Shown here in pieces: positions 38,513 to 41,456 of a stretch of DNA of 57,187 bases. The stretch covers positions 1-57,187 of the forward strand of contig VHCM01000003.1 of assembly GCA_016871685.1 (NCBI GenBank). Direction: 5' to 3'. Source of the stretch: Verrucomicrobiota bacterium (lineage in GTDB: Bacteria > Verrucomicrobiota > Verrucomicrobiia > Verrucomicrobiales > Akkermansiaceae). The notes beneath the pieces were generated by a model that did no database searches, had not been told where the DNA came from, and saw nothing but the letters and a program-made list of their open reading frames with translations. Each line of letters opens with the position of its first letter. Position 1 is the stretch's first letter. The position numbers and the translations under genes were made by a program.

Positions 38513-38776
38513 CTAGTGGTTGGATGGCGGGGCTTGTTCTGCTTTGATTCTTTCTGCGAGCCAGACTTTGACAATCGATTGGCGAGTCACTCCGACTCGC
38601 TTCGCCTCTCGATCGAGCGATGTGATCATCCAATTCGGAAGATCGACATTCACACGACGCTGCTCAAGGCCAGGACGCTTCGCCTTGCTCCAGTCAAGGT
38701 ACGCAGAAATATCCTCACCGGCATCAAAGCGGCGATCTAGTTCCCTAGCTGTTAAAGTATCCTTCTTCTTCACCAT
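38513..38776 (-). CDS. brnA: BrnA-family antitoxin (CopG-like)
   Basis: This 87-aa protein ends in a ribbon-helix-helix pattern: 'RVNVDLPNWMITSLDREAKRVGVTRQSIVKVWLAERI' in character, with the beta strand 'RRVNVDLP' and two helices. The N-terminal 'DISAYLDWSKAKRPG' is typical of BrnA. It should bind BrnT and repress the operon. Its start overlaps brnT by 32 bp, the usual toxin-first order of this system. Base composition is noticeably lower in GC than in the surrounding housekeeping genes. Confidence 0.88.
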   Translation of the reverse strand: MVKKKDTLTARELDRRFDAGEDISAYLDWSKAKRPGLEQRRVNVDLPNWMITSLDREAKRVGVTRQSIVKVWLAERIKAEQAPPSNH

Positions 38777-39008
38777 GGCGTGATCTCCTTGCTGATATGA
38801 TTCGAATTCTGTCTTCTCTTACTGTGAAAATTGCTGTCCACAGCTTTCCTGCGTGGGAAGCGATGATGGCGAACCGTGGTTCAGTCTCACTCCGAGCCTC
38901 AACCACGAGACGACGCTCATCGCGCCACAGGAGTTGAGCCTCCGAGAAGTCAATCCCATGCTTTTCAGCGTTGATCTGTGACTTTGCCTCGTCGAACTCA
39001 AAATCCAT
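38745..39008 (-). CDS. brnT: BrnT-family ribonuclease toxin
   Basis: The 87-aa protein starts 'FEFDEAKSQINAEKHGIDFSEA', the signature of BrnT (DUF497), an RNase of RelE-like fold that blocks translation. Later landmarks are 'RFAIIASHAGKLWTAIFTVRED' and 'RIISARRSRHGEEEGY', which include the conserved Arg and the terminal R-x(2)-R-x-E-x(3)-Y pattern. It lies immediately downstream of a strong promoter-like sequence and overlaps brnA. Both genes look intact. Confidence 0.9.
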   Translation of the reverse strand: MDFEFDEAKSQINAEKHGIDFSEAQLLWRDERRLVVEARSETEPRFAIIASHAGKLWTAIFTVREDRIRIISARRSRHGEEEGYFNS

Positions 39009-39099: not shown

Positions 39100-39327
39100 T
39101 CACGCGTGCGGAATTGCGAACGCGGGTTCGCCGATGAATGCCACGGCAGAACCCGTTCCCTGGGTCGCGTTGATCGTCCAAGCTGAGAATCCCGAGCCGC
39201 CGTTCAATCCGTTGCTCCAGCCGTTGGTGTAGTTGGAGGCGTTGTCGTTCGCGACGGATGCCGCGTGCAGGAGTCGGGCGGCGGAAAGCAATGTTGCCGA
39301 CGTGATGATGATGGTACGGGTTTTCAT
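39100..39327 (-). pseudogene. Truncated exosortase-substrate-like (PEP-CTERM-type) protein fragment
   Basis: The 75-aa reading frame has a signal peptide ('IIITSATLLSAARLLHAAS') and then 'NDNASNYTNGWSNGLNGGSG', a segment typical of the N-terminus of verrucomicrobial PEP-CTERM proteins, which are usually 200-300 aa. It stops at 'AFAIPHA' without the rest of the domain or any C-terminal sorting signal, and no continuation is seen in the next 90 bp in any minus frame. It looks like a remnant cut at the edge of the brnTA island. Confidence 0.6.
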
Positions 39328-39514
39328 GAGTGAGTGAGGTACGTCGGGAACTGCTACACTACAGGCAGGAATTCAAGCAAAAACAGAGATTTCTTCACGA
39401 TTCGATCCATTTCAGCGGCCCTTGATCCCAACAGACATTCGGCTTCAACCCACCACCACCCGGTCTCGTGCCTCTTCGCTTGAAACCGAATACTTCAAAC
39501 TTGAAACTCGATCC

Positions 39515-39925
39515 ATGTCATTCCCCGTCACACCGGAAAAGATCGACGAGTTGGCGCGCCGCATGGCGGCCCTCGGGATCAACGAGCAGATGCTGCTCGA
39601 GAAATTCGTGCGCGGGTCCGGTGCGGGCGGACAGAAGATCAACAAGACGAACAACTGCGTGTTTCTCAAACACCTGCCGAGCGGTGTTTGCGTGAAGTGC
39701 CAGATCGACCGCTCGCGCGAACTGAACCGCTATCTCGCACGCCGCGAGTTGTGCGAGCAAATCGAACGAATCCGCGATGGGCTTGCCGTGGCACGCACCC
39801 AGGCCATCGAGAAGATGCGTCGGCAACAACGCCCGCGATCGAGACGATCGAAATCGCGCTCGATCGAAGACAAGCGACGTCTGGCGGTGAAGAAGGCGCT
39901 GCGCCGTCGGCCCGGCAACGAATGA
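39515..39925 (+). CDS. Small peptide-chain-release-factor-like protein with GGQ motif
   Basis: The 136-aa protein has the peptidyl-tRNA hydrolysing motif in '[14 protein letters not shown]' (about residues 32-45) and a basic Arg/Lys/Ser-rich C-terminal tail, but no codon-recognition domain. This matches ArfB/C12orf65-type rescue factors that free stalled ribosomes; the tail would enter the empty mRNA channel. The ATG at 39515 is chosen because upstream in-frame sequence is intergenic repeat material. A strong terminator-like hairpin lies 115 bp downstream. Confidence 0.85.
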
Positions 39926-40127: not shown

Positions 40128-40520
40128 TCAACCGTCGAAACCCGGGAATCCCAACTCCGCCAACACCGGAAGATCGGCGGGCACCCAGTCGAGCCGACGG
40201 GATTCGCCCGCATCACACCAGCGCAACTCCTCGTGCTCGAGCGCCTGCGGCATGCCATCGATGACACGACAATGGAACGGCATCAGGCGGACCTCCGCCC
40301 AAGGGTAGCTCCACTTCACCGGAGACAACGCCTCGCCAACCTCGACTTCAATCGCGAGTTCTTCGCGCAGCTCGCGGACCAAGGCCTCCTCGGGTGTTTC
40401 GCCGGGATCGACCTTGCCGCCGGGAAATTCCCAACGTCCGGCCAGGACTTTGCCTCGCGGCCGACGACAGGCAAGCAGGCGGCCCGACGAATCCAGAATC
40501 ACCCCGCACACCACATCCAT
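40128..40520 (-). CDS. mutT: NUDIX hydrolase, MutT-like (8-oxo-dGTP diphosphatase)
   Basis: The 130-aa protein carries a full Nudix box: 'GGKVDPGETPEEALVRELREE' in shape, beginning at about residue 32 with Gly-Gly and ending in the REL-x-EE-x metal site. The upstream 'LLACRRPRGKVLAGRWEFPGG' is typical of MutT, which removes 8-oxo-dGTP from the nucleotide pool. Start 40520 gives the standard 'VVCGVILDSSGRLLA' opening; upstream in-frame codons would add 27 unconserved residues. Its 3' end lies 12 bp from the plus-strand terminator. Confidence 0.87.
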   Translation of the reverse strand: MDVVCGVILDSSGRLLACRRPRGKVLAGRWEFPGGKVDPGETPEEALVRELREELAIEVEVGEALSPVKWSYPWAEVRLMPFHCRVIDGMPQALEHEELRWCDAGESRRLDWVPADLPVLAELGFPGFDG

Positions 40521-40624
40521 CGTCACAACGAATCCTGCACCGGATCGTGCTAGGAGGTCAATCACCGGAGATCTCAAGCGAAGGCGAGGCTGACATCGCA
40601 AGCCCTTTCCGAATCATCGATGAC

Positions 40625-40656
40625 AAAAAACCGCCGGAGGGCATCCGGCGGTTTTT
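40625..40656 (-). terminator. Bidirectional-looking rho-independent terminator
   Basis: CCGCCGGA (40631-40638) pairs with TCCGGCGG (40644-40651), loop GGGCA, flanked by AAAAAA on the left and TTTTT on the right. It lies 28 bp downstream of the Cys-rich gene on the minus strand and should end that transcript. Confidence 0.88.
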
Positions 40657-40683
40657 GAAAATCGAATCAGTGAAAAACACGGA

Positions 40684-41214
40684 TCATGCAAGCACGGTAC
40701 CCTCGTCGCACTCACCTTCGTCGCAGTCCTTCTTTTTTTTGCACTTGCCGGCGAGTACGGTGCCTTCTTCGCATTCTTCTTCGCCACAATCCTTCTTCTT
40801 CTTGCACTTGCCAGCAAGGAGCGTCTCTTCCTTCTCCTTGTCGCAGTCGCCGTCTTTCTCCTTGCACTTGTCGGCAAGCACGGTGCCTTCATCGCACTCT
40901 TCTTCCCCGCAGTCCTTCTTCTTCTTGCACTTGCCACCGGCGAGCACGGTGCCCTCGTCGCACTCCTCGTCTTTCTTCTTCTTGCACTTGCCGCAGTCGC
41001 TGGCGATCACCGCCTGCTTCTCCGGCTTGCACTCGCACTTGGCGCAGTCTTCGCCTTTTTTGGCGACACACTCATCGCCGCAACCGCACTGGGCGGAAAG
41101 CACGATGGTTTCCTCTTGTTTTTCCTTGTCGCACTTGCCTTTGCCGCAGTCGTCCGCAAGGGCGAACGGCGCGATGAACAGCGAAATGCAGAACGAACTG
41201 ATGATGCGTTTCAT
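40684..41214 (-). CDS. Secreted cysteine/lysine/glutamate-rich tandem-repeat protein, unknown function
   Basis: The 176-aa protein has a clear signal peptide (1-20, 'ISLFIAPFALA' before the cut). The mature part holds about 22 cysteines in roughly 156 residues, nearly all the rest being Lys, Glu, Asp and Gly. From residue 88 to the end it is a tandem array of four units of 20-22 residues, each starting 'T(V/L)LA', then 'KCKKKKDC' or a variant and 'GEEEC', plus a final partial unit. Two looser units precede it. Cys spacing is CxC or Cx(4-6)C. Metal binding (metallothionein-like) or a disulfide-linked rod are possible; no known family was recognised. The 5' leader is A/C-rich without a Shine-Dalgarno site. 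A strong terminator follows. Confidence 0.8.
   Translation of the reverse strand: MKRIISSFCISLFIAPFALADDCGKGKCDKEKQEETIVLSAQCGCGDECVAKKGEDCAKCECKPEKQAVIASDCGKCKKKKDEECDEGTVLAGGKCKKKKDCGEEECDEGTVLADKCKEKDGDCDKEKEETLLAGKCKKKKDCGEEECEEGTVLAGKCKKKKDCDEGECDEGTVLA
40687..40953 (-). repeat. In-frame tandem repeat of about 60-66 bp (four units plus partial)
   Basis: The repeat encodes residues 88-176 of the Cys-rich protein. Units begin at residues 88, 110, 131, 151 and 172. They differ by small in-frame changes, such as KCKEKDGDCD in unit two instead of KCKKKKDCGE, suggesting old duplication with drift or slippage. Confidence 0.8.
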
Positions 41215-41456
41215 GATGTGGTTTGGTTGGTTTGGTTTGGGTCGGGCCTGATGAAACCCCGCAGGATGCGGAAAGTATCGCCAAGCGGTCTTGCCGGACT
41301 TGAAGATGCCCGAAGTTCCGACGAAATCCAGCGGATTTGATTCAAAAATTCGTCTCAAAAAACGGATTTTCTTCCAACAAACCCCGGATCACCCCGGTCG
41401 GCGTCAATTTGGCTTGGCCGGATCTGACCCAAGCCCTATGCCCCGGCACTCCCGCC

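Follow-up and report, generated by a model that had tools for sequence, protein, structure and literature searches.

A cysteine-pair repeat protein of Luteolibacter-like bacteria as a candidate exported metal sponge

Introduction

The stretch of DNA analysed here (the window) comprises the first 57,187 nucleotides of contig VHCM01000003.1 from a Verrucomicrobiota bacterium of the Akkermansiaceae (GCA_016871685.1). One of its genes encodes a repetitive protein rich in cysteine, lysine and acidic residues, and it raises two questions: whether so repetitive an open reading frame (ORF) is a genuine gene, and what the cysteines of its product do. An earlier note, made from the sequence alone, described a secreted tandem-repeat protein of no recognised family that could bind metals or form a disulfide-bonded rod, and took the gene to be probably expressed alone. 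It proposed a profile search for homologues and a check of whether the cysteines are kept while unit number varies, and held that a lack of homologues together with random substitution of the cysteines would suggest a low-complexity artefact.

We find that the gene belongs to a real family that is near-universal and usually single-copy in its genus and has relatives in neighbouring genera. The reading of its product that we tentatively prefer, on the evidence of sequence, is an exported, probably unstructured Cys-pair polyampholyte that would serve as an extracytoplasmic metal sponge.

Results and Discussion

A gene family with signs of selection on the protein

Used as a single query, the window protein found matches in 18 of 59 genomes, its own included, all of them from its own genus, which is Luteolibacter-like. 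A profile of 16 N termini extended the family to 62 of 73 genomes of the genus and 71 of 386 genomes of the order, and a broader profile of 40 N termini (A4) matched 95 of 260 within the taxonomic family (Akkermansiaceae level). By genus, the A4 matches comprise 65 of the 73 genomes of the source genus (g1), 15 in g19, 10 in g21, 3 in g20 and one each in g23 and g29. In a phylum-wide sample, the same profile matched 14 of 387 genomes, all inside this taxonomic family, and none of the 20 genomes listed for g18, which are 98–100% complete. These counts are profile matches; the proteins themselves were inspected for 80 distinct sequences. Among the distant matches, that of genome G175 (g21) is convincing and that of g23 (L125) lacks the aliphatic end motifs described below; the protein behind the g21 match of G189 (L124) was not recovered by our script. 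Two of the eight g1 genomes that were missed, G020 and G072, show gene fragments at contig ends. The source genome (G000; 2.27 Mb in 189 contigs, 95.6% complete) holds one copy, and a Luteolibacter sp. locus (L024) encodes the same protein as locus L002 of G016. A search for viral copies returned 14 stretches that fit a pattern, none of which was confirmed as viral.

The only source outside the taxonomic family, matched by the narrower profile, is a minus-strand gene of genome G041 in family f6 (L067:5330-5746). It encodes an exported-looking protein of 138 residues that is rich in Cys and Lys, with 22 Cys after residue 20 and many CC pairs, and that is not clearly repetitive. It is possibly a distant relative or a case of convergence.

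Selection on the family was examined in 34 close pairs of proteins, which share members and are not independent. Cys was the least substituted residue, changed at 22 of 700 positions (3.1%) compared with 660 of 5898 (11.2%) for all others; the values for Lys and Leu were 5.6% and 6.0%. The proportion of synonymous changes (pS) exceeded that of non-synonymous changes (pN) in all 25 of the closest pairs listed, for example 0.36 vs 0.03 for L062/L063 and 0.59 vs 0.04 for L014/L018. With homologues across the genus, pS above pN and Cys the residue least changed, we reject the low-complexity artefact, and the outcome that the earlier note had named as fatal to its description did not materialise.

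Signal peptide and repeat architecture

The features of the locus are collected in Table 1. The secretion claimed for the protein appears to hold, as judged from a signal-peptide-like N terminus that is kept across relatives, with cleavage predicted after A20. In the A4 alignment the M1 and C23 columns are invariant and K2, L3, A10, P16 and K25 nearly so; the window protein deviates from this consensus at R3 and I10. Many relatives (55 of 78) also carry a Cys inside the hydrophobic stretch of the signal peptide, residues 4–18, and none of the first 17 sequences departed from it. Lipoprotein attachment through this residue was considered and rejected: it lies too early, no lipobox was seen by inspection, and a substantial minority of the proteins are without it.

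Table 1. Features of the repeat-protein locus, in window coordinates
Feature	Position	Strand	Remarks
Coding sequence including stop, exported Cys-pair repeat protein, 176 aa	40684..41214	minus	translation and homologue matches
Sec-type signal peptide, MKRIISSFCISLFIAPFALA	41155..41214	minus	residues 1–20, ends in ALA; by inspection
Unit 1, DDCGKGKCDKEKQEETIVLSA	41092..41154	minus	21 residues, 2 Cys; most family-typical unit
Unit 2	40999..41091	minus	degenerate; 31 residues, 6 Cys
Units 3–7	40687..40998	minus	21, 21, 20, 21 and 21 residues; 3, 3, 2, 3 and 3 Cys
Terminator hairpin (predicted), CCGCCGGA-TGCCC-TCCGGCGG	40624..40657	either	flanked by A and T tracts; core of inverted repeat
Promoter-like element, GAATCA-N5-GCTGGAT-N17-CATCTT	41303..41343	minus	putative function; ends 88 nt before start codon

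The 156-residue mature part contains 22 Cys, and Tandem Repeats Finder (TRF) reports an array of period 63 nt and 4.4 copies at 40688-40965; ORF, Cys count and array agree with the tandem repeats and cysteine number first described. The finer description of the units needs revision. We divide the mature part into seven units, of which units 3–7 each terminate in TVLA or TLLA, with one extra G after unit 3. Six of the seven are 20–21 residues long, within the 20–22 proposed in the note, but unit 2 is much longer. CKKKKDC and EEEC, said to occur in each unit, are both present (three times and twice in the mature protein) but not in all seven. The T(V/L)LA strand had been placed at the start of each unit; relatives show the aliphatic motif closing the unit, and most proteins stop right after it. 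For its family, the window protein is unusually rich in Cys, with 3 Cys in four of its units and 6 in one. Plus-strand ORFs at 40394-41251 and 40686-41177 overlap the gene and are taken as shadows of the purine-rich sense strand.

Unit statistics were drawn from 61 distinct proteins cut at the aliphatic motifs, L067 and a few end fragments included. Exactly two Cys are present in 299 of 340 units, at spacings from CX2C to CX6C (n = 2 in 126 units, 3 in 59, 4 in 92, 5 in 21 and 6 in one). Units are mostly 16–22 residues long, with an overall range from 16 to >30, and a typical one reads (G/D)KC-Kxx-CDKE-(K/E)n-(GT/DP)-(A)L-A. The first starts directly after the signal peptide, and the C-terminal motif is TLA in 30 of the 61 proteins, ALA in 6, VLA in 4 and TFA in 4. 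Unit number, estimated as half the Cys count, varies from about 2 to 11 per protein, while the Cys pairs are kept, as the close pairs also indicate. In 60 proteins, GKC was counted 181 times and CXXC 157 times. Another type of unit, which opens with HCGKC, appears 32 times, in genera g1, g19 and g20; 26 of these units contain an additional His, in most cases 4 or 6 residues past the second Cys, and in three units of L074 and L075 CDKC is replaced by CDKH. Average unit identity is 75% within a protein and 52% between proteins, which argues for ongoing unit turnover.

Composition was computed for 78 proteins of at least 60 residues, with L067 left out and contig-truncated proteins kept in. Their mature parts, 60–199 residues long with 4–23 Cys, consist of Lys (26%), Glu (16%), Asp (14%), Cys (11%), Gly (10%), Ala (8%), Leu (5%) and Thr (4%); Arg and Tyr (0.01% each), Phe (0.13%) and Met (0.2%) are rare, and Trp is absent. 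The mean net charge per residue is -0.04 (range -0.22 to 0.13). With a mean charged fraction of 0.56 and Arg and aromatic residues nearly absent, disorder is expected, in line with an AlphaFold2 model in which the mean predicted local distance difference test score (pLDDT) is 35.8 and all residues fall below 50; as the alignment held 2 sequences, the model is weak evidence.

A near-universal gene of Luteolibacter-like bacteria carries no Pfam or NCBIfam name, and the original statement that the protein belongs to no recognised family stands, with no convincing match in Pfam, NCBIfam or the PDB. Pfam returned no family for the window protein at E <= 10 and only stray matches for 17 members, the best (8.9e-4) to a beta-defensin model; we take the Defensin_beta_2 and Furin-like matches to reflect Cys composition. 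Weak NCBIfam matches to the Shiga toxin Stx2b model (3 of 17 members, best E 0.036; window protein E 0.41, residues 1–37, 10.8 bits against a cut-off of 201) were likewise set aside as signal-peptide resemblance. A profile of the 17 members found no solved structure in the PDB at E <= 1. A c-type cytochrome was rejected, since CXXCH is absent from the 60 proteins in which CXXC was counted. No open-access paper on Cys-rich proteins of Luteolibacter turned up, and among those listed on Luteolibacter proteomics, on Cys-rich secreted repeat proteins of Verrucomicrobiota and on their metallothioneins none seemed to deal with the family, which is not proof of its absence in print.

Free thiols or disulfides

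How would such a protein work? Under the reading we prefer, it would be made constitutively, exported by Sec and processed at the predicted site. Each CXnC pair would then supply two thiolates. Neighbouring Lys would offset the negative charge of the thiolate-metal complex, as they do in metallothioneins, and a single soft metal ion, be it Cu(I), Zn or Cd, would be bound by one or two pairs. The HCGKC units would contribute His ligands, and capacity would be tuned through gain and loss of units.

Several observations are consistent with this scheme. Cys come in pairs whose spacing is loose but whose number per unit is mostly kept, and Cys is the residue least substituted in the close pairs. 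Lys adjoins Cys on 45% of sides, compared with 25% in 200 shuffles (maximum 29%), and Lys also flanks the thiolates of metallothioneins. Nearly half of the His residues (32 of 67) stand immediately before a Cys. The source genome contains neither VKOR nor DsbB, other oxidation routes not having been searched, and among 31 genomes of the genus, mostly drafts and the source included, VKOR was found in 8, DsbB in one and neither in 22. The lack of both enzymes in the source genome makes free thiols plausible and favours a metal sponge over a disulfide rod.

The same data bear on a disulfide-linked envelope or matrix protein, in which Cys pairs would close loops or cross-link chains and charged blocks would interact to give a tough polymer. 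The protein is exported and its Cys are paired, the arrays differ in length, as is common among structural repeat proteins, and nine of the 31 genomes do have VKOR or DsbB. Against such a polymer stand the majority of genomes with neither enzyme, the absence of a fold in the two-sequence AlphaFold2 model and an odd number of Cys in 17 of the 78 proteins, contig-truncated ones included. We consider it unlikely. The rod of the earlier note lacks support, given the low pLDDT of that weakly based model, the uneven unit length and a source genome with neither VKOR nor DsbB.

An exported thiol/disulfide redox buffer is a still less likely alternative. CGKC, CDKC and CKKDC pairs would cycle between dithiol and disulfide and shield the envelope from oxidants, a role with which the frequent CXXC motifs, the near-universal presence in the genus and the scarcity of VKOR and DsbB would agree. 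However, spacing is not fixed at CX2C, so the redox potential would not be tuned, and no thiol reductase was found among ten groups of genes that recur next to the family and were scanned.

Other observations weigh against the metal sponge itself. Cys density, at 11%, is well below that of metallothioneins (about 30%), and exposed thiols could oxidise in aerobic cells; the even Cys number of 61 of the 78 proteins fits disulfides as well. His lies within 4 residues of a Cys in 70% of cases, compared with 58% under random placement, and some random sets reach 76%. In a naive alignment of 245 pairs at 55–95% identity, Cys, Lys and Leu are equally conserved (81.8%, 81.7% and 81.4%), the advantage of Cys being visible only where the alignment is secure. 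No metal-handling protein was found among the ten neighbour groups, and no metal-regulator site was identified.

On balance, the lack of association with a modifying enzyme (see below), the scarcity of VKOR and DsbB and the Lys-flanked Cys lead us to favour free thiols that bind soft metals. A more speculative extension, which we hold with correspondingly less confidence, is that these proteins form a new class of exported thiol polymer, nearly Arg-free and built almost wholly from about eight amino acids, with Cys pairs along a disordered polyampholyte chain, in a genus that mostly lacks the known disulfide-forming enzymes. Such a polymer might buffer soft metals or thiol redox outside the cytoplasm without a modifying enzyme, its capacity depending on the number of repeats.

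Comparison with known systems

We file the family provisionally among exported low-complexity metal-binding proteins. Bacterial metallothioneins of the SmtA type share with it Lys-flanked Cys, a lack of aromatic residues and loose Cys spacing, but they are cytoplasmic and far more Cys-dense, whereas the repeat protein is exported, repetitive and without a Pfam match. Omc-type outer-membrane proteins of Chlamydiae, members of the same superphylum, are likewise exported and Cys-rich; they are disulfide-cross-linked and of another repeat type, and no such Pfam match was found for the present family.

An analogue in mechanism, if the proposed role is correct, is SilE, a disordered periplasmic silver sponge (PMC5008109). 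Like SilE, the repeat protein would be exported, disordered and able to soak up metal ions, but SilE uses His and Met motifs where the repeat protein has Cys, few His and very little Met, and SilE belongs to the sil resistance operon whereas the repeat gene stands alone. ZepA, which serves zinc uptake and is found in Luteolibacter yonseiensis too (PMC10957091), is likewise exported, metal-related and present in a Luteolibacter; the word cysteine is absent from the text of that paper.

The closest system in print is the Buf_EGKCG/oxazolin (HvfA-type) precursors of copper-binding ribosomally synthesised and post-translationally modified peptides (RiPPs), in which a Sec signal peptide is followed by 17-residue repeats with two Cys motifs (PMC12452194). 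The resemblance extends to a variable number of two-Cys repeats (many of 16–19 residues here), to the stand-alone position of some precursor genes (PMC12452194) and to the frequency of GKC. The differences are that units here close with an aliphatic motif and are uneven in length, EGKCG is absent, the source genome has no multinuclear non-haem iron-dependent oxidase (MNIO) and the profile matches lie, the undecided L067 aside, in one bacterial family, whereas the published precursors are mostly from Pseudomonadota (PMC12452194).

Could the repeat protein nonetheless be a copper-binding precursor of the bufferin/oxazolin kind, with an MNIO enzyme (PF05114) from another locus acting on its Cys? 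The shared layout of signal peptide and two-Cys repeats of about 17 residues speaks for it (PMC12452194), and PF05114 occurs in 5 of the 10 family-positive g21 genomes and in 22 of the 95 positives of the broader profile, so that some relatives could still use it. But PF05114 is absent from the source genome, and with the narrower profile it was found in 16 of the 71 genomes of the order sample that have the family and in 61 of the 315 without it, which amounts to no association, on the assumption that the profile and PF05114 searches drew the same 386 genomes. EGKCG was found in none of 60 proteins. We therefore reject membership of the bufferins and regard this kind of precursor as very improbable.

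A different maturation can be envisaged, in which cleavage at the recurring (T/A)LA sites would release many short Cys-pair peptides from the protein, or another maturase would alter it. The aliphatic-Ala motif at unit ends resembles the -3/-1 pattern of signal peptidase, most proteins end there, and behind the conserved N terminus the repeats are homogenised. Simple tandem duplication would also give a shared unit boundary, however, and no protease or known peptide maturase was found among the ten neighbour groups, two of which gave no match at all; we judge such processing quite improbable.

The preferred reading, metal binding by the unmodified protein, would have consequences beyond this locus. 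The copper-binding RiPP precursors of parallel layout depend on a dedicated iron enzyme that is missing from the source genome; if metal is indeed bound without modification, the family would offer an uncomplicated means of buffering metals by export of a protein and could serve as a natural model for metal-binding polymers. The family is also relevant to the behaviour of exported Cys-rich proteins where bacteria have neither DsbB nor VKOR.

A probable separate transcription unit

A GC-rich inverted repeat lies just downstream of the gene (40617-40665; 22-nt arms, 82% complementary), and the hairpin at its core could serve as a terminator for both strands. A hairpin followed by T residues was found downstream of 71 of 76 relatives, compared with 1 of 76 after shuffling and 17 of 760 windows drawn at random from these loci. 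A simple terminator and sigma-70 scan of the window reported neither this hairpin nor a promoter at the upstream element; we think that pairing between the A and T tracts hid the hairpin from it. Rfam gave one match, on the terminator, far below its cut-off.

Upstream, many g1 members carry the element GAATAA-N5/6-NCTGGCG-N17-TAnnnT, mostly 35–50 nt from the start codon, of which the window has a degenerate variant (GAATCA, CATCTT). Among the 80 distinct genes, taken from all genera, 28 have a loose form in the 110 nt upstream. The strict pattern, absent from the source genome, occurs 16 times in the 73 genus genomes, once per genome, and a reversed control gave none. Fifteen occurrences lie directly upstream of genes already known from the profile and the sixteenth before a member in G073 that the first profile had missed. 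As all 16 are upstream of this gene, the element appears gene-specific, with no wider regulon at that stringency. The recurrent hairpin and this element agree with the suggestion that the gene has its own terminator and is transcribed alone.

Six g19 loci (L056, L059, L060, L063, L064 and L069) have in common an upstream element of GAACAA...GGTTCT or GTTCT type, kin to that of g1, which could be a regulator binding site.

Genomic surroundings

In the window, the gene is flanked by a NUDIX gene (40128-40601, minus) on one side and by divergent tgt, yajC and a fused secDF on the other, all unrelated to the repeat protein. Across the window and 40 relatives, SecDF is near the gene in 14 of 41 loci and Tgt in 12; other neighbours differ. 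Synteny was rejected as a functional clue, the position being common to one clade only, and since the neighbours vary, location says little on function beyond independence from an operon. The ten recurring neighbour groups, scanned with one representative each, include NUDIX, photolyase-related, PSCyt2/PSD1, YkuD, glycosyltransferase, DUF1501, FtsJ/S4 and NuoG-like proteins; the two representatives that match nothing are perhaps in wrong frames.

Three further features lie nearby. A type II toxin-antitoxin pair at 38513-39008 (minus) consists of a BrnT toxin (PF04365, 5.3e-25) and a CopG-type antitoxin (PF12441, 9.5e-8). The gene at 39422-39925 (plus) encodes a small, stand-alone protein that has an RF-1 domain (PF00472) with a GGQ motif and is presumably a ribosome-rescue hydrolase of the ArfB type. 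Finally, a short ORF at 39100-39327 (minus), without a Pfam match, begins like a signal peptide, continues with a Gly/Asn/Ser-rich stretch and is possibly the remnant of a surface protein gene.
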